Below are positions 51,612 through 62,681 of a stretch of DNA of 64,000 nucleotides, piece after piece (within the stretch, counting starts at the first letter, position 1; each line of letters starts with the position of its first letter). The notes below the pieces were generated by a model. The model did not search any database and was not told the origin of the DNA. It saw only the letters and a program-made list of their open reading frames with translations. The DNA is from Sphingomonas kaistensis. Its GTDB lineage: Bacteria; Pseudomonadota; Alphaproteobacteria; Sphingomonadales; Sphingomonadaceae. The translations under genes were made by a program, and so were the position numbers. The stretch is from the NCBI RefSeq assembly GCF_036884275.1, contig NZ_CP145607.1:1661001-1725000 (forward strand). The letters run 5' to 3'.

Positions 51612-51686
51612 GGGCGTGTAGCTCAGTGGTAGAGCACTGTGTTGACATCGCAGGGGTCGCAAGTTCAATCCTTGCCACGCCCACCA
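51612..51686 (+). tRNA. tRNA-Val (GAC)
   Basis: The acceptor stem GGGCGTG pairs with CACGCCC, with A73 and encoded CCA (51684-51686). The D-arm is AGCTCAGTGGTAGAGC, the anticodon loop TTGACAT (anticodon GAC), and the T-arm GTTCAATCC. It is the last core gene before the accessory DNA and hence a candidate integration site. Confidence 0.95.
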
Positions 51687-53387: not shown

Positions 53388-56006
53388 ATGAGATCGGACG
53401 CGCCGAAATCAGCATATGAAATGATCCTGGCGTGGGCTCCGAGCCGGCCCTTGTGGCAGCAGGATGCGCTAAAGCGGATCGTGGCCAACGGTAAGCTGGA
53501 CCCCTGCGACATCGACGCGCTGGTTCAGTTGTGCTTGCGAGGCCAAGGCAAGAAGGACGTGGCGCTTGAGCCGGTGCCGCTTTCGTCGGCCGACCGCCTG
53601 GTACGCGTAACCGCAGGCGGTGCGCTTTCCCTTCGCTCGATCAGCAACGTGACTCGGGCCAACCGCCTGGCTCCTGAACAGACGCTGCCCTTCGAGCCGG
53701 CGGGCCTCACCGTAATCTATGGCGACAACGGGGTCGGGAAGTCAGGTTACGCACGAATTCTGAAGCGTGCCTGTCGCGCCCGCTTCAGCGCGGCCATCCT
53801 GCCGGACGCATTCGCTCCGGCAGAAGCCGGGCCCGCGAGTGCGACAATCTGTTGGGCAGATGAGGGCGTCGAGTGTCCGCCGATCGAGTGGAGCGATGAG
53901 GGTGCGCCTCACCCCGTTCTTTGTGCGATCAGCGTGTTCGATCGAGATTCTGCCGCCGTCCACGTCCGTGATCAGAATGAGGTCGCGTTCCGGCCGTTCG
54001 GCCTGGACATCCCGGATGAGCTCGCGGCGGCATGTCAGGCCGTGAAGGAGAAGCTCTCTCAGGAGCAGGAGCGCCTATCGAGAGCGCAAGATCAAATCTT
54101 CACGCGACCGCCGTATAGCACTCAGTCGTGCGTCGGGCGCATTATGAGCTCGCTGACCGCCGACTCTGATCTCGAGGCCCTGAGAGTTCTGGCAACGATG
54201 TCCGCCCAGGAGCTCGAACGACTTGAGCGACTCTCTGAGGACCTTGCTGGAGACCCCCTCAAGGCCGCTACGGCGGAGCGGACTTGGGCAAGCTCGCTGG
54301 AGCGCTTCGCGACAGAGCTTGATGTGACCTTGGCCAGGACGAGCGAGGTCGCCGTAAGCGCTTTGATGGAGGCGGTTGTCGATGCTCAAGACAAGCGGAA
54401 GGCCGCCCAATTGGCTGCTGGCGCCGCATTCGGTGCAGCCGTTGTCCGAGGTGTTGGGGAAGCGCCATGGCGGGCCCTGTGGGATGCGGCCCGGCGATAC
54501 TCACAGGAGAGCGCCTATCCAGACAAAGCCTTCCCTGTCGTAGACGCAGATGCCGCATGCCTGCTGTGTCAGCAGCCGATTGATCCGGCAACACGCATCC
54601 GTCTCACTTCGTTCGAGGCATTCGTCACAGACGACATCGAAAGGCAGGCGCAGCAGGCGGAGAAGCGGCGTGATACCTTGGTTGGCGCGCTAGCGGCGTC
54701 ACCTGTTCGGCTCACGGCTTTCCCACTGGTCGGGCAACTGGCCATTCGAGTTCCCGACGTCTGGAAGACGGTTTTGCGTAGCCTTGCTGCCTCCCGCGTC
54801 AGGAGATCGCGGGCGCTTACACTGTTGTCGGATCAGGACATCGCGAAGCTGCCGCATCCGACTTCTTCGCCCGTCGATGTCCTGCGTGGGCTTGCCGCCA
54901 GGGCTCGGCATTACGCTGACGAACTCACGCGAGCTGCAGATCCCCAGGAGCGCGCAAGGCTGGAGAGTGCGAGGGACGAACTCCGTGACCGGAAGTCGCT
55001 GCGGGATCTCCTTCCAAAAGCCGAAGCCGAGATCGCCCGCCTGAGGGAGCTTGCCTGCATCCACAGGTCTCTCGCGGAGACCGACACGAAGTCGGTAACG
55101 AGGCTCGGCAATGCCATCGCCGATGAGGTCATTACGCCGCGCGTGAGAGATCGCTTCCAAGAGGAGATCCAGAAGCTCGCTGCAGGCAGGGTTCGGGTCG
55201 ACATCGTGCGATCCGGCGGGCGGTTCGGCTCACCTCAATATCAGGTTCGGCTGTTCGCCAACGAGAAGGCGAAAGTTCACTCCATCCTCAGCGAAGGGGA
55301 GCAGACCTGCGTAGCGCTCGCAGCGTTCCTCACCGAGCTCACCACCGCCGACCGACCCTCCGCGCTTGTTTTTGACGATCCCGTCTCCTCACTCGACCAT
55401 CGCTGGCGCCAGAAGGTCGCGGAGCGCCTCATCGAAGAGGCTCGGACGAGGCAGATCATCGTCTTCACCCACGACCTCGTCTTCCTGAGCGATCTTCAGA
55501 CGCTGGCCTCTCGCGGGGGCATTCCTCACAAGGAAGTCTCGCTCAGTCAGTCGGCCCGTGGGGCCGGCGTCGTGCGGGAAGGCCTGCCTTGGGTTGGACA
55601 GCGGATCCCTGAACGCTTGGACAATCTCGAGAAGGAAGCGCGAGCCGCTCGCATTCTGTACGAGAACCATGACGAGGATGGTTACGCGGCTGCAGTCGCC
55701 ACATTCTATAATCATCTGCGCAGCACGTGGGAGCGCGCCCTTGAAGACGTGGCGTTCTGCAACGTGGTCCACCGACACCGGGACTACATCAACCCAAAGG
55801 ACCTGAAGAAGGTGGTCGTGTTGGAGGGCGCAGACATCGCCGGATGGGAGCGCGGATACAAGGTTTGCTGCGACATCACGGATGCCCACGATCCGTCGCG
55901 AGGGCGCAACGCCGCATGCCCGCCACCGGACGATCTCCTAGCCCACGTGGCGGATCTTACGGAATGGACCCGCTCGCTTCGAGACCGTCAAAAGTTGGTC
56001 GCATGA
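53388..56006 (+). CDS. SMC/RloC-like ATPase with zinc hook, putative anticodon-nuclease-type defence protein
   Basis: The 872-residue protein has Walker A GDNGVGKSG (residues 112-120), a long coiled-coil centre with C391-L-L-C394 as a zinc-hook candidate, the ABC signature LSEGEQT (634-640), and Walker B ALVFDDPVSSLDH (659-671) followed by the switch IVFTHDLVFL. The C-terminal ~200 residues carry R778-S-T-W-E782, the R-x3-E spacing of the PrrC/RloC anticodon-nuclease site, with candidate histidines at 795, 797 and 834. Sequence and layout fit RloC-type DNA-damage-responsive tRNA nucleases, but other zinc-hook AAA proteins share them. It lies in the accessory region without obvious partner genes. 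Confidence 0.68.
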   Translation: MRSDAPKSAYEMILAWAPSRPLWQQDALKRIVANGKLDPCDIDALVQLCLRGQGKKDVALEPVPLSSADRLVRVTAGGALSLRSISNVTRANRLAPEQTLPFEPAGLTVIYGDNGVGKSGYARILKRACRARFSAAILPDAFAPAEAGPASATICWADEGVECPPIEWSDEGAPHPVLCAISVFDRDSAAVHVRDQNEVAFRPFGLDIPDELAAACQAVKEKLSQEQERLSRAQDQIFTRPPYSTQSCVGRIMSSLTADSDLEALRVLATMSAQELERLERLSEDLAGDPLKAATAERTWASSLERFATELDVTLARTSEVAVSALMEAVVDAQDKRKAAQLAAGAAFGAAVVRGVGEAPWRALWDAARRYSQESAYPDKAFPVVDADAACLLCQQPIDPATRIRLTSFEAFVTDDIERQAQQAEKRRDTLVGALAASPVRLTAFPLVGQLAIRVPDVWKTVLRSLAASRVRRSRALTLLSDQDIAKLPHPTSSPVDVLRGLAARARHYADELTRAADPQERARLESARDELRDRKSLRDLLPKAEAEIARLRELACIHRSLAETDTKSVTRLGNAIADEVITPRVRDRFQEEIQKLAAGRVRVDIVRSGGRFGSPQYQVRLFANEKAKVHSILSEGEQTCVALAAFLTELTTADRPSALVFDDPVSSLDHRWRQKVAERLIEEARTRQIIVFTHDLVFLSDLQTLASRGGIPHKEVSLSQSARGAGVVREGLPWVGQRIPERLDNLEKEARAARILYENHDEDGYAAAVATFYNHLRSTWERALEDVAFCNVVHRHRDYINPKDLKKVVVLEGADIAGWERGYKVCCDITDAHDPSRGRNAACPPPDDLLAHVADLTEWTRSLRDRQKLVA

Positions 56007-56093: not shown

Positions 56094-57155
56094 TCACTCC
56101 AGCCGAGCGGTCGCAAGCTTGGCAATCCGCGCCTCCTGGAGCTTGACCAAGGCCTCACTCTCCTTCGGGGTCCAGTCGGCCACACTGGCATTGAGGTTGA
56201 ACCAGGGAAGTCGCTCACAGCGTCGGCGGAATTGTACGGGCAAGCGCCGTTCGCACCAGGGGTTTTCCAGCAAGAAGCTTCCACCATCCGTCGCAACGAT
56301 TACGGCCGTCACACGGCTCTTGCGTTCGCCACGCTGCCGAAAGCGGCCATCGTGCCCCATGAGAACCTTGCGAGGGCTGCCTTCTTCCAAGATCGGGGCG
56401 CCCTTCCAGCCATAGAAAGCGTACCAGATCGCTCCCGAGGTCAGCCCCATGTGCCCAGAGATCAGCGGATGCGCTTGCTCAAGCAGCGTGTGGGTCATGG
56501 CGCCGAAGTGGCAAAGGTCGAGCCAGAGAACGAAGGGCAAGTCTCGTTGCTGCTGGTGCTCGCTTGATTTCACCGCGCACAGCTTGCTGATCACGTTGGC
56601 CTGAACGGAGTCATGTGGCTTTGCAGGATCCGGTGAACCACCGGGATGGGAGACCGAGGTGGTTGAAGTGATGACCCGGTCTCCGAATCGGGTTGACCTA
56701 CGCTCCACCCCTGCTGGTGTCTCGCCTGCCGCGATCGCACGACGGCGCGCAGTCTGATCACCATCCTCATGCTTGGCATGCACTTCGACAATCACCGGTC
56801 CGTCACCAGCATCGACCTCGAAATCGGCCGTAGCACCGCGTCCCTTGCCGGCAACGATGGGCCGAACAGCCATACCAGCTTCCATCAGCCCTCCGAGTGC
56901 ACGCAACTCGGCCAGTGCTGCAGCAGCATCAGTGTAATCGCTGATGGCGACGGCTCGGTCGATCATCGTCTGCACTGACGCGCGCGGCTGCGGTTCGGTC
57001 GCAATCACGCGCGCCATCTGATCGACGAGGTGGTGCATCGGCCGTTTGTCGGTGCCGAAAAGGATGGGCCAGGCTGGGTGGCGTTGATCGCCATCAAGAT
57101 CAGCGTTGCGAATTGCAACGATCTGAGTGTCGGAGAGGAGGGAAGAAAAGTTCAT
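56094..57155 (-). CDS. Unknown protein, possible PD-(D/E)XK-type nuclease
   Basis: The 353-residue product starts MNFSSLLSDTQIVAIRNADL. Around residues 115-140 it reads GATADFEVDAGDG and then VIVEVHAKHEDG. The pattern D-x(~10)-E-x-H-A-K, in two strands, is compatible with a restriction-endonuclease-like core, but it is a weak match. The C-terminal half is Trp/Arg-rich (PWCERRLPVQFRRRCERLPW). It is convergent with the ATPase gene. The frame is open 15 codons upstream of the chosen Met. I know no family for it. Confidence 0.45.
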   Translation of the reverse strand: MNFSSLLSDTQIVAIRNADLDGDQRHPAWPILFGTDKRPMHHLVDQMARVIATEPQPRASVQTMIDRAVAISDYTDAAAALAELRALGGLMEAGMAVRPIVAGKGRGATADFEVDAGDGPVIVEVHAKHEDGDQTARRRAIAAGETPAGVERRSTRFGDRVITSTTSVSHPGGSPDPAKPHDSVQANVISKLCAVKSSEHQQQRDLPFVLWLDLCHFGAMTHTLLEQAHPLISGHMGLTSGAIWYAFYGWKGAPILEEGSPRKVLMGHDGRFRQRGERKSRVTAVIVATDGGSFLLENPWCERRLPVQFRRRCERLPWFNLNASVADWTPKESEALVKLQEARIAKLATARLE

Positions 57156-57347
57156 AGCGCAGCAGCCTACAGGTGAGGGAGGCGGGTCCATGGCTATCAA
57201 TTAGGACAGCTGGGTGAACTCCCGGGGAGCGCGCAAAGATGGCTCGGCCCAGCGCTGGGGGTTGGTCACTGCTGCGCTGTCCGCGGCAGTTGCGGCATCG
57301 AACCACCAACAAGGTGAGATTGGTGGGTCCAACGAGTTGCGGGGGGC

Positions 57348-57596
57348 TCAGGCGTGCTCAATGCCGCGTTCGTCAAGAAGCGCCCTTAGTTTGTCCTGGG
57401 CGGTGCCGCGCCCACTCCCAAGGAACTCATTCACAGACCGAATGAACGGCTTACCAACTTCCATGTCGCCGCGACCAGGGCCAGCCGAAAACTCGGTCTC
57501 TACGTGCACCTCGCCGTCCTTGCCCAAGCAAAGGAAGTGCCACGTCTCATCGTGGTTTCCCTTCTCATGATAATAGAAGCGGATCCGCTCAGCCAT
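57348..57596 (-). CDS. Small unknown protein
   Basis: The 82-residue product MAERIRFYYHEKGNHDETWHF begins with a GGAGG site six bases upstream of the ATG. It contains alternating acidic and aromatic residues and ends LRALLDERGIEHA. I recognise no domain. Divergent by 156 bases from the tandem-nitrilase gene, it may share a control region with it. Confidence 0.5.
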   Translation of the reverse strand: MAERIRFYYHEKGNHDETWHFLCLGKDGEVHVETEFSAGPGRGDMEVGKPFIRSVNEFLGSGRGTAQDKLRALLDERGIEHA

Positions 57597-57752
57597 TCGA
57601 TAACCTCCGTGCTCAGCACTTGGTACATAGTCGGCGTGGGCGCAACTGCGACACGTCGCCGCTCGGTTTGCCTGAACCAGGTGATCAATTCGACGAGATC
57701 CAACCAACGCTCCCGATCTTGCTCACTGCGCCCACATGCCCGACTAGAGCCG

Positions 57753-59582
57753 ATGCTTGAGATCAAACTCGAAGAATCAGCGTTGCGACCGCTCGACGGA
57801 ACCCTGCAAGTAAGAGTTTTCCAGGACCGAGCGGAGCGGGACGTTCTCGGTGATCGGGACGCTCTGCGTCGCGCGCAGCAAGTCGACGATGTCACCGAGT
57901 CCGAAGTGCAGACATTTGAGGAACGATTGAGGCTCACTCGCGAAGGCGAGTTGGCGGTGATGTCATTTCACCGCGGCGTGCAACGCAATCGCGAAGCCTT
58001 GAAACGGGCGGCTTCAGACCGGTCGATCGTGACGCTCGGAGGCATCAGCCCGGAGGCTCACAATCTGACGATCATCGCAAGCGGCGGAAGGGTCTACGAG
58101 CAGGCTAAGACGTCGCTTTCGTCGGAAGACGGCGACGACGGCGTTATCGCTGGTCGCGTCCTCCACGTCTTTCACAACGAGGACGAACCGGAGGCGGTGC
58201 GCTGGGCCGTGGTGAACTGCCACGAATACACGCACGCTGACATAATGAAGATCCTGCTGGAGCGGCGGATCGAACTTCTTGTCGTCGTGACTTTCAACGC
58301 TGCTACCCAACTCTATTGGGAGTACGCCATTGCCGACGTCCACCGCCTGTTTTGCTTCATAATCGTCGTAAACGTCGCCGAACTGGGCGGGTCAGCCGCG
58401 TTTGCGCCTTTCCGACACTTGGGGAACCAACGCAACGCTACGTTGCGGACCGCCGGGCAGCTATTCTCCACCCGGGGACCATTCGAAACCACGGCCACGG
58501 TCAATCTGGACATCGCCGAGCTCCGCCGCCTTCGTCAGCTATACGGCGATGAGGGCTTGTCAGGTCCGAAGGCGATGCGCAGCGCCAAATACTTGCCGCT
58601 AGCGCCGTCCGAACACTTCATGCACACCTACGATCGTGAAGCAGGATCACCAGCCGTCGACGAGGTGGTGGACGTTTCGCTTGAATGGAACGGTGACGAT
58701 CCGACCGTGGCAATTGTCCAGCTCAATTCCGTTCCAGCCGACCAATACGTTGCCTGCCGTTACCGGCTGGACCAGCTCGCGGATACCTACAAGCTGGCGC
58801 GTTTCGAGGAAGGCTTGAAGCTTCATCTTTCATTCCTCGAGCAGCGTTTACCGGTTGGAGCGAACGGCCGGAAGGTGTTGGATTTCCTGGTACTGCCGGA
58901 GGTCTTCGTCTCGCGCAGGTTCGCAGAGCAGGAGCTAGTATCCTTCTGTGAGAGGACGAACGCAGTGGCCATCTGCGGAGTAGACTATCCGGGGAGTACG
59001 GACGAGGAAAACCGCAACTCGGCCTGGATCATGACAGGCCGGGGAAGGATCGCCGAATACGACAAAGTCACGCGGTCGCAGTACGATGCGCTCGCCGATG
59101 AGGTCGGCGGACGCATGCCCTTGATGCGAGGAAGGAAGCTCTACCGATTCACGAACTCAAACGCCGATGCCTTCGGCGTGCTGATTTGTTACGACTTCAG
59201 CCACTTCGATCTTGTCCATCGGATCAACATGGAAGGGCGCGAAACTCCATTAGACGCGCTGTTCGTTATCGCCCACAATCCGTTCGGCGAACTATACAGG
59301 ACGTGCTGCATTGCCGACTCCCACCGCTTCTACCAGCACGTGATTCTCAGCAACGTCGCCCCGTTCGGTGGTAGCGGCATCCTTGCGCCGATCCGCACTG
59401 AGGGCGCTAGGCAGACGCTGGTGAACTTAGGAATCCGCAACGAGACGATCTCGCTGACCCGTCTCGAACTGAGCGAGCAGCGTGCCGCGCGCGCCATGGA
59501 CGATACAGCGATTCACGAGCAGGCGAAGACGTCCGGCATCATGATGCGTCGGCCGGGCATCTATTCGCGCCGACTCTGTTGA
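57753..59582 (+). CDS. Tandem nitrilase-superfamily protein, first domain catalytically degenerate
   Basis: A 609-residue protein with two carbon-nitrogen hydrolase-like halves. The second half (~residues 317-575) has the full triad: E383 (LVLPEVF), K438 (EYDKVTRS) and C479 (LICYDFSHFD). The first (~65-230) aligns with it over IADVHRLFCFIIVVNVAELGG versus IADSHRFYQHVILSNVAPFGG. It retains K119 and C156 (VVNCHEYTHAD), but the Glu position reads MSFHRGV, so no nucleophile activator remains. The upstream frame is open, and the start at 57753 is a choice, not a certainty. Single nitrilase domains occur in some phage-defence reverse transcriptases (DRT type 1 and relatives); here there is no RT domain. 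Confidence 0.72.
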   Translation: MLEIKLEESALRPLDGTLQVRVFQDRAERDVLGDRDALRRAQQVDDVTESEVQTFEERLRLTREGELAVMSFHRGVQRNREALKRAASDRSIVTLGGISPEAHNLTIIASGGRVYEQAKTSLSSEDGDDGVIAGRVLHVFHNEDEPEAVRWAVVNCHEYTHADIMKILLERRIELLVVVTFNAATQLYWEYAIADVHRLFCFIIVVNVAELGGSAAFAPFRHLGNQRNATLRTAGQLFSTRGPFETTATVNLDIAELRRLRQLYGDEGLSGPKAMRSAKYLPLAPSEHFMHTYDREAGSPAVDEVVDVSLEWNGDDPTVAIVQLNSVPADQYVACRYRLDQLADTYKLARFEEGLKLHLSFLEQRLPVGANGRKVLDFLVLPEVFVSRRFAEQELVSFCERTNAVAICGVDYPGSTDEENRNSAWIMTGRGRIAEYDKVTRSQYDALADEVGGRMPLMRGRKLYRFTNSNADAFGVLICYDFSHFDLVHRINMEGRETPLDALFVIAHNPFGELYRTCCIADSHRFYQHVILSNVAPFGGSGILAPIRTEGARQTLVNLGIRNETISLTRLELSEQRAARAMDDTAIHEQAKTSGIMMRRPGIYSRRLC

Positions 59583-59694: not shown

Positions 59695-60936
59695 TCAGAT
59701 GTTTTGTGATGCCGTATTCTCCTTCTTGCTTGGTTCGAAACTGAACGCTCCAGGCACGACTGCCTCGATTTCGTCGATGATCTTCTCGATCTCCGCCTTG
59801 GCAGCCGCGCAGTAGGAAGGGTCGGATGGGGCGTAGATGTCCGACACCGAGTCGAACTTGCTGTGGCCCAAGACCAGTTCCACATCGACCCAATTCTCCT
59901 TCGGCAGGCGATCGCGGAGGAGCTTGGCCATGGATCGGCGAATGAGTTTCATGCCGCTCTCTCCATCTTTGGGTAACGTCAACTCGGCCGCCATATTGCG
60001 CCAAGCTGCGCGCACGCTTGCGACGGGGACGAAGAAGCCCTTGGTGGCATCGAGCCAAGGTGCCACCTGCTTTGCGATGGGCAGGGTGGGGCGGTACTTC
60101 TTCGTCTGGCGGCGCCCTTTGGGATTGAGGTTCAGCACGCGAAGGTTCGAATGCCATTGCCCACGCTCCGGCGCCGTGGAGACGTCGAGCGCGGCGTCTG
60201 GGCGGGCGAGCGTGGCAACGGAGATGATGAGGAAACGATGAAGCGGCTTACGGCGCTCCTTGCGATCAGGGTTCGTGGCGTAAGCAAACATCTCGGCCAG
60301 CTGCGCCACGCTGGAGCGATGGGTAGGCGTCCGATTGACTTCCTTCGTCGGAATGGGGCGGAACAGCGCTCCCTTGCCCGTGCGCCGAAAATCGTAGGCG
60401 TGGTTAATTACCGCAGCAAGCTGTAGGACGCTGTTCTCTACCGTGGAGAGTGACCTCTCCTTCTGCTTGCCCGTAGGTGTGACGATCGGCTGCTTCGCGG
60501 CCCACTGCCGAAAGCCCTCGACCCAGTCATCGTCCACGTCACTACACCGAACGTCACCCGGCAAGGTGGAGAGATAGTTGACGACATGAGCGAGACGGGC
60601 CTTGATTGCGGAAGCCGAGGCCTTCTTGTCGAGTTCCGTCGTGAGGTAATTCGCGATCGCGTCTGCGAGGAAGAGAGCCTCCGCCGCTCTGGGCATGTGC
60701 TGACCGCATGTCGGGCAGACAATCTCGCCGCGAGTTACCTTCAGATAGTGTGCATCAAGCTTCAGCTTCCCTGCTTCAATGTCGCTTGTGCCCGTTGAAG
60801 TGCTGACAGTCCGGCGTCGCTTCGGGTCGTAGGTGACGATGGCCAGGTAGGGGGAGCGGAGCGTACCATCCGTCTTTCGGTCCCAACGGAGGACGAATTC
60901 GCCTCTGCGATAGATATCTGTTTTGTTACTCGGCAC
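59695..60936 (-). CDS. Tyrosine-type integrase of a mobile element
   Basis: The 413-residue protein (GTG start) has an N-terminal DNA-binding part, a C74-P-T-C77 pair and a C-terminal tyrosine-recombinase catalytic region: R245 (ATLARPDAAL), H358 (VLGHSKFD) and the nucleophile Y368 (DIYAPSDP). The second-arginine box, normally HxxR, reads LIRRSMA (R333/R334) with no His. It is distinct from xerD and marks the region as an integrative element. A small overlapping gene lies upstream. Confidence 0.85.
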   Translation of the reverse strand: MPSNKTDIYRRGEFVLRWDRKTDGTLRSPYLAIVTYDPKRRRTVSTSTGTSDIEAGKLKLDAHYLKVTRGEIVCPTCGQHMPRAAEALFLADAIANYLTTELDKKASASAIKARLAHVVNYLSTLPGDVRCSDVDDDWVEGFRQWAAKQPIVTPTGKQKERSLSTVENSVLQLAAVINHAYDFRRTGKGALFRPIPTKEVNRTPTHRSSVAQLAEMFAYATNPDRKERRKPLHRFLIISVATLARPDAALDVSTAPERGQWHSNLRVLNLNPKGRRQTKKYRPTLPIAKQVAPWLDATKGFFVPVASVRAAWRNMAAELTLPKDGESGMKLIRRSMAKLLRDRLPKENWVDVELVLGHSKFDSVSDIYAPSDPSYCAAAKAEIEKIIDEIEAVVPGAFSFEPSKKENTASQNI

Positions 60937-62589: not shown

Positions 62590-62614
62590 GGTATTGCGCC
62601 CGTTCCGGGTAGCT

Positions 62615-62681
62615 GTGTCACGGCTTACCACGAGCATGCAGTGTCACCGCATACCACCGAAGATGTGTCACGCCATACCAC
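62615..62681. repeat. Three direct repeats GTGTCAC-N4-TACCAC
   Basis: GTGTCAC occurs at 62615, 62641 and 62665, each followed four bases later by TACCAC (62626, 62652 and 62676). Spacing is 26 and 24 bases. They lie 27-93 bases upstream of the ATG at 62708. The pattern fits repressor or iteron sites, or the multiple terminal repeats of an IS21-family element remnant. Confidence 0.7.

Follow-up and report, generated by a model that had tools for sequence, protein, structure and literature searches.

What is gained when an enzyme carries a crippled copy of itself in the same chain? The question is raised by one gene, encoding a 609-aa protein (P0001), in a 64,000-nucleotide stretch of Sphingomonas kaistensis DNA, hereafter the window. 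A sequence-only reading had described the product as a tandem nitrilase with an internal duplication, active in its second half and dead in its first, lying in a mobile region and akin to the nitrilases of defense reverse transcriptases (RTs), and had proposed that it may work as an RT-free, nucleotide- or amide-acting effector controlled by its own dead copy.

Two Nitrilase Domains, One with a Crippled Active Site

The internal duplication was confirmed, as was the claim on which the earlier reading had staked its case, namely that the first half is nitrilase-like: in the predicted two-domain model (pTM 0.94) both D1 and D2 adopt a nitrilase fold (Table 1). The catalytic residues also fall where they had been placed. 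D2 carries the triad E383-K438-C479, found in all 127 rows of the family alignment described below, and D1 has K119 and C156 with F72 at the Glu position. We assign F72 to the Glu site because it follows strand 67-70 as E383 follows strand 378-380; most family members with a Glu at this site read S-E-H-P there. D1 of the window's protein is thus a nitrilase fold that has lost its general base and kept the nucleophilic Cys and the Lys, and D2, judged by its invariant triad and predicted fold, is a working C-N hydrolase. Both domains contain an Asp seven residues after the Lys (D126 in 84/85 rows, D445 in 85/85 rows), which from its spacing and from nitrilase chemistry we take to be the other acidic residue of the catalytic tetrad. 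A P-S-E-H-[FY]-like motif is conserved at the end of D1, and the motif at the C-terminus of the protein is conserved at R599 (76/85 rows), P601 (77/85), and G602 (79/85).

A housekeeping amidase was not retained as the leading idea, since PF00795 has four matches in the genome, all of them at other places, and P0001 itself scores under the Pfam cut-off (15.3 bits for CN_hydrolase on D2, against 23.2). The larger ORFs nearest the tandem gene (57348-57707 and 59695-60936) are both on the opposite strand, and the gene is therefore probably transcribed alone.

Table 1. Features of the tandem nitrilase gene and its surroundings (window coordinates)
Feature	Position	Strand	Basis
Tandem nitrilase gene, 609 aa (P0001)	57753..59582	+	ORF, homologues, predicted model
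D1, first nitrilase-fold domain, residues 1-295 (about), catalytic Glu replaced	57753..58637	+	predicted fold and residue alignment
D2, second nitrilase domain, residues 313-609 (about), E-K-C intact	58689..59579	+	structure/profile matches, 127-row alignment
D1 Phe72, site of the missing catalytic Glu	57966..57968	+	family alignment
D1 Lys119	58107..58109	+	family alignment
D1 Cys156, invariant in 127/127 rows	58218..58220	+	family alignment
D2 catalytic Glu383	58899..58901	+	127-row alignment
D2 catalytic Lys438	59064..59066	+	127-row alignment
D2 catalytic Cys479	59187..59189	+	127-row alignment
R-R-P-G-I/V-F-like motif at the C-terminus (residues 599-604), where the DRT1 active-site lid would lie	59547..59564	+	conservation
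tRNA-Val(gac), island integration site	51612..51686	+	
Left copy of 49-bp perfect direct repeat (tRNA 3' end)	51638..51686	+	
AAA_13-type ATPase, PADLOC candidate defense family PDC-S06	53388..56006	+	E 1.6e-185
Tyrosine recombinase/integrase-like gene of the island	59695..60936	-	

Loss of Glu or Lys, but Not Cys, in the First Domain

A first protein search gave at least 91 homologues besides the query (7995 candidates scored), and a second search, seeded with distant members, brought the total to at least 134 proteins (7998 candidates scored). The alignment of 127 rows contains the 123 of 134 proteins that are 540-950 aa long (11 fell outside this range) together with four translated loci; a few of its rows are probably close kin from one cluster. 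Named members among the matches listed include Sphingobium, Sphingomonas, Bradyrhizobium, Variovorax, Stenotrophomonas, and Herbaspirillum, and further Acidobacteria, Gimesia, Paenibacillus, and Syntrophomonadaceae.

Every row has E-K-C in D2 and the Cys in D1. The D1 Lys is present in 102/127 rows. The D1 Glu is replaced in 87 rows overall, by F, Y, W, or H with the Lys present in 78 and by another residue with the Lys present in 9, and a further 25 rows have the Glu and lack the Lys (Gln in 21, Glu in 3, Gly in 1). Exactly one of Glu and Lys is missing in 112/127 rows, both are missing in none, and the full E-K-C occurs in 15. Given the E-K-C triad of the superfamily, we infer that an absent Glu or Lys is a loss and not a gain. 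Parsimony assigns 2 changes to the Glu state and 2 to the Lys state on both the 86-row and the 127-row trees, which were built with the Glu and Lys site columns included. The alignment thus suggests that D1 was disabled via two routes, loss of the Glu or loss of the Lys, with the nucleophile kept. In the Syntrophomonas-type loci L008, L009, L011, and L012, the D1 Glu is kept and the Lys is changed to Gln, the mirror of the proteobacterial state.

These counts modify the picture of a dead first copy. One catalytic residue has indeed gone, but the Cys is never lost, and with one of Glu and Lys missing D1 looks crippled rather than decayed. The sequence-only reading had also taken housekeeping homologues with both triads intact as a sign against itself, and this sign is half there: the 15 rows with an intact D1 triad, which are without a name or annotated "predicted amidohydrolase", mean that a disabled D1 is not required family-wide, and the remaining 112 have a disabled one. 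It is quite unlikely, to our mind, that D1 is still catalytic through a different Cys chemistry, for instance a half reaction or one that uses a stand-in base, which would make the protein a two-step enzyme. The ubiquitous Cys, the frequent Lys (102/127), and Asp126 at K+7, where by spacing the second acid would sit (84/85 rows), would fit such chemistry, yet 78/127 rows have F, Y, W, or H in place of the Glu and 25 lack the Lys instead, which leaves no common D1 catalytic set beyond Cys and Asp.

D2 is the more conserved domain, with a mean pairwise identity of 0.507 versus 0.435 for D1 and a higher value in 3207/3570 pairs; measured against P0001 alone, the difference is less clear (0.477 versus 0.455, D2 higher in 60/84). 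In a 55-row domain tree, which includes three of the four genomic nitrilases (L003 was left out, its motif having been missed), a branch with SH-aLRT 99 separates the 23 D1 domains from all other rows. For the 23 D2 domains two changes are needed, with one not excluded. A duplication or fusion that happened once, long ago, would fit this arrangement. The position of the RT-linked nitrilases in the tree is unsure because of long branches. In one homologue, P0092, the D1-like half switches abruptly into unrelated sequence, as after a deletion. Another, P0017, has an N-terminal DUF4238 fusion, a name that in the passages cited is listed among antiphage systems (PMC10855318) and mentioned alongside CBASS (PMC12629846).

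Kinship with the Nitrilases of Defense Reverse Transcriptases

The suspected kinship with defense-RT nitrilases is borne out by two kinds of match. By sequence, the closest solved relative of the family profile is DRT1 (PDB 9yfd, E 8.2e-13), with profile positions 358-595 aligned to 989-1227 of the 9yfd chain; 9yfd is absent from the VIA list, but that list re-aligns only Foldseek's best chains, and the absence therefore carries no weight. The PADLOC models, which are broad, gave RTasNitrilase (best, E 1e-30), UG5 RT-nitrilase, CARF_m7-nitrilase, and Drt1a, the matches running through the later, nitrilase parts of these models.

A match was found in nine of 397 genomes from the bacterial family of the window, a set taken out of a larger group: the window's full-length tandem and eight with one domain or less. 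Six of these eight were examined, the other two (G094 and G207) being weak, and in all six the one-domain relative is fused to or beside an RT. PADLOC identifies DRT1 at L028 and a UG5 RT-nitrilase at L029. At L024-L027, a one-domain nitrilase gene adjoins an RT of 1061-1081 aa; the nitrilases are 302 (L024), 303 (L025), and 308 aa (L027) long, and 425 aa as the longest frame at L026. PADLOC matched RT_UG6, RTasDnaG-like, RTasNitrilase, and DEDDh in the L024 set and RTasNitrilase for the L027 nitrilase, and the RTs are 60-61% (L024 and L026) and 39% (L027) identical to that of L025. L024-L027 are four UG6-type sets of RT and nitrilase genes from the window's bacterial family.

DRT1 is a class 3 UG/Abi RT with a C-terminal nitrilase domain (9yfd, PMC13275509). 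D2 matches that domain, and the C-terminal motif of the tandem protein, which from its position we infer to be a homologue of the DRT1 lid, would lie in its place. Unlike DRT1, the tandem protein has no RT or alpha-repeat part; it has a second nitrilase domain instead and is single-gene and RT-free. RTasNitrilase is the best PADLOC family both of D2 and of the nitrilases beside UG6 RTs (L024 and L027 tested), but the latter are one-domain proteins next to an RT and not tandems. The UG5 RT-nitrilase, which together with a membrane partner protects against phage according to the cited portion of PMC9122126, has a nitrilase part that is matched by D2 and weakly by D1, whereas it is fused to an RT and has one nitrilase domain. 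CARF_m7-nitrilase (PADLOC PDLC01989) also joins a nitrilase to a second domain and is RT-free by its name, and its later part is matched by both D1 and D2; judging by the name, its nitrilase is joined to a ligand sensor of the CARF type, and that of the tandem to a crippled nitrilase. No CARF domain was found in the tandem protein, the PDLC01989 matches covering 305-388 (D1) and 232-417 (D2) of 457 positions and not the model start; D1, moreover, has a predicted nitrilase fold.

The sections of the DRT1 study drawn on here (PMC13275509) state that the nitrilase Cys is required for defense, which is of the abortive kind; that the nitrilase domains pair via two faces, with the effector switched by assembly; that the active site is completed by a neighbor's C-terminal lid; and that nitrilases work as oligomers, with subunit pairing needed for activity. 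The substrate of the DRT1 nitrilase is an open question to those authors in the same sections.

No Reverse Transcriptase near the Tandem Loci Examined

The claim that the protein is RT-free also stood. Two nitrilase domains occupy its 609 aa, and neither Pfam nor PADLOC matched an RT part in it. A six-RT profile, which in a leave-one-out trial recovers 6/6 known RTs (E 0 to 2e-4), had no match at E<=10 anywhere in the window or along nine tandem-locus stretches (L005-L012 and L023), and no adjacent RT gene of the UG6 type was found at the tandem loci examined. Since PF00078 (RVT_1) is weak alone, recovering 3/6 RT-nitrilase-linked RTs, one of them under the cut-off, this profile and DRT1, UG5, and UG6 queries were added to it. 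Nine tandem-bearing genomes or records were searched: the genome of the window, the genomes of L005-L011, and the plasmid with L014. For L012, the profile search covered a 5.6-kb stretch. The DRT1 and UG5 protein queries returned the tandem's own D2 region or nothing in these nine, and the UG6 RT query had no match. With PF00078, the window's genome gave no match; in the other eight, the matches of this family lie on a different contig from the tandem in seven and at least 204 kb from it on the circular Bradyrhizobium plasmid (L014).

These results bear on whether the tandem protein could be the nitrilase arm of an RT system, acting in trans with a distant RT. Its best PADLOC family, RTasNitrilase (E 1e-30), speaks for such an arm, but we regard it as very improbable: the window's genome has neither an RVT_1 nor a UG6 RT match, the DRT1 and UG5 queries match there only the tandem's own nitrilase region, and the RVT_1 matches of the other tandem genomes are on other contigs or, on the Bradyrhizobium plasmid, at least 204 kb off.

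Distribution and Genomic Neighbors

The tandem family is rare and sparsely distributed. It occurs in 1/71 genomes of the genus and, as a full-length tandem, in one of 397 genomes of the bacterial family, both times the window's own; one pattern-limited scan of GTDB contigs gave eight loci, and one plasmid record of 72,556 has a tandem. No tandem copy was found in phage records or in two viral-contig scans, within the limits of their peptide patterns, and a phage-borne gene was rejected on this ground.

The mobile setting that had been noticed proved to be a tRNA-Val island of about 31 kb with an integrase-like gene. The island (~30.9 kb) is bracketed by the perfect 49-bp repeat at both ends, the right copy lying at window-equivalent 82517-82565, 18.5 kb beyond the window; the window and the next 7 kb contain no right att copy. 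GC content is 0.66-0.72 ahead of the tRNA-Val, drops to 0.57-0.63 behind it, and climbs back to 0.64-0.70 from about 65.3 kb, a step which suggests that the island may be composite. Rfam matched only tRNA near the tandem gene.

Over ten tandem loci, neighbors up to 5 kb away were shared by independent lineages in only four pairs at E<=1e-3 (a receiver-domain pair at 2.8e-10 and three borderline pairs at 7.5e-4 to 9.3e-4), and a conserved operon partner was rejected. PADLOC was applied to chosen neighbors (8 in the window, 6 at L005, 2 at L006, 10 at L007, 10 at L008, and 9 at L023) with E limits that differed between loci, from 0.1 to 1e-10, and gave matches beyond a bare HNH nuclease near 4/6 loci probed: the window, L005, L014/L023, and L008. 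SspC lies 7.5 kb from the tandem at L005, Dsr1-like and E1-E2-like proteins lie 17-25 kb from it on the L014 plasmid (2/9 proteins), and L008 has PDC-S03 twice, 3-5 kb from the tandem, and an RtcR-like AAA protein (3/10 proteins in all), whose match spans only the later part of the model, taken to be the widespread AAA part. At L006, an HNH nuclease beside the tandem is the only match (1/2 proteins), and at L007 none of the 10 flanking proteins has a match at 1e-10. The neighbors at Syntrophomonas-type loci are mixed and partly housekeeping-like (labels by eye).

A Proposed Role for the Crippled Domain

We tentatively propose, at somewhat less than an even chance, that the tandem protein is an RT-free conflict effector encoded by a single gene, with D2 hydrolysing an amide and D1 serving as the crippled, Cys-bearing regulatory half. 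D1 and D2 of one chain would probably make up a fixed pseudo-dimer, in a pairing mode that we presume. The D1 pocket would bind a ligand without turnover, perhaps covalently via Cys156, and the bound ligand would alter the packing of D1 on D2, or of chain on chain, such that the D2 active site opens. The open D2 would then hydrolyse an essential amide metabolite, and growth would stop in phage infection or in a conflict between elements. A D1 that switches D2 seems the most likely working because nitrilases need subunit pairing and assembly is what switches the effector of DRT1. By analogy, chemical precedent for an adduct trapped on a Glu-less nitrilase fold may be seen in an amidase whose Glu41 we take to be the general base and whose Cys is presumably the adduct site. 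The titles of PDB entries 4izw (E41L) and 4izt (E41Q) name covalent adducts in this amidase with Glu41 replaced.

In favor of the effector reading are the D2 triad and the D1 Cys, each in 127/127 rows, with one of Glu and Lys missing in 112 and both in none; the two changes that suffice for the Glu state and for the Lys state on the trees; the higher conservation of D2; DRT1 as the closest solved relative; the RT linkage of 6/6 one-domain relatives, with tandem loci that have no such RT and no shared neighbor; the island with its integrase-like gene and PDC-S06; the sparse distribution; the PADLOC matches beyond a bare HNH nuclease near 4/6 loci probed; the one DUF4238 fusion (P0017); and the adduct titles of 4izw and 4izt. 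Against it are L007 without a PADLOC match, L006 with HNH only, and the partly housekeeping-like context of the Syntrophomonas type; the distance of the L014 matches (17-25 kb), the partial RtcR-like match at L008, and the breadth of the PADLOC models; and the lack of copies in phage records and viral-contig scans and the 15/127 intact D1 triads.

Alternatively, D1 may be a structural scaffold, a hard-wired dimer partner that would make D2 active within a single chain and whose conserved residues would serve folding and packing, with D2 a constitutive amidase, perhaps metabolic cargo of mobile elements with a role in detoxification or salvage. This is a real possibility, though on the unlikely side. 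The two-domain model (pTM 0.94), the 15/127 rows with both triads intact, the absence of a PADLOC match among the 10 neighbors of L007, and the oligomeric working of nitrilases, as put in the cited sections of PMC13275509, would all suit a scaffold, which nevertheless leaves unexplained why the D1 Cys is kept in 127/127 rows despite loss of the Glu or the Lys, never both; the relatives examined, moreover, are RT-linked effectors.

A bolder version of the effector reading, and one that we consider unlikely, makes the protein a one-gene immune protein in which D1 is a non-turnover Cys trap, arisen more than once (through loss of the Glu on some branches and of the Lys on others), that senses an infection-made ligand and activates D2. 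The ligand would be a metabolite, a nucleotide derivative, or an electrophile produced in phage infection, and a pseudoenzyme would do the job of the protein-primed DNA synthesis of DRT1 and what CARF-nitrilases presumably do with cyclic oligonucleotides.

We found no description of a tandem half-disabled nitrilase among the titles and abstracts listed from the openly licensed PMC literature. With an RT-free, single-gene member that has a crippled twin, work on substrate, trigger, and regulation could dispense with the RT. Should D1 be a ligand trap, the trigger could be captured through its Cys. The two routes by which D1 was disabled while its nucleophile stayed may offer a clear natural series for the passage from enzyme to sensor.

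Other Features of the Island

Next to the PDC-S06 ATPase lies a minus-strand gene (56094-57200, 368 aa) for which Pfam, PADLOC, NCBIfam, and PHROG gave no match within the limits applied. Three operator-like 21-nt direct repeats with 24-26 nt spacing (62611-62681) lie near the likely start of the ORF from 62594. Farther along the same island, at 2177-10913 of L045 (window-equivalent about 66177-74913), three genes in a row on one strand encode a ClpA-like AAA+ protein, a radical-SAM-like protein, and a 2090-aa zinc-ribbon protein (labels by eye); this row looks like an undescribed multi-gene system. In some genomes of the same genus, partial copies of the tRNA-Val 3' end lie tens of kb off the intact site (for example, about 20 kb in G059 and about 29 kb in G013), which suggests that this tRNA-Val is a shared island hotspot.
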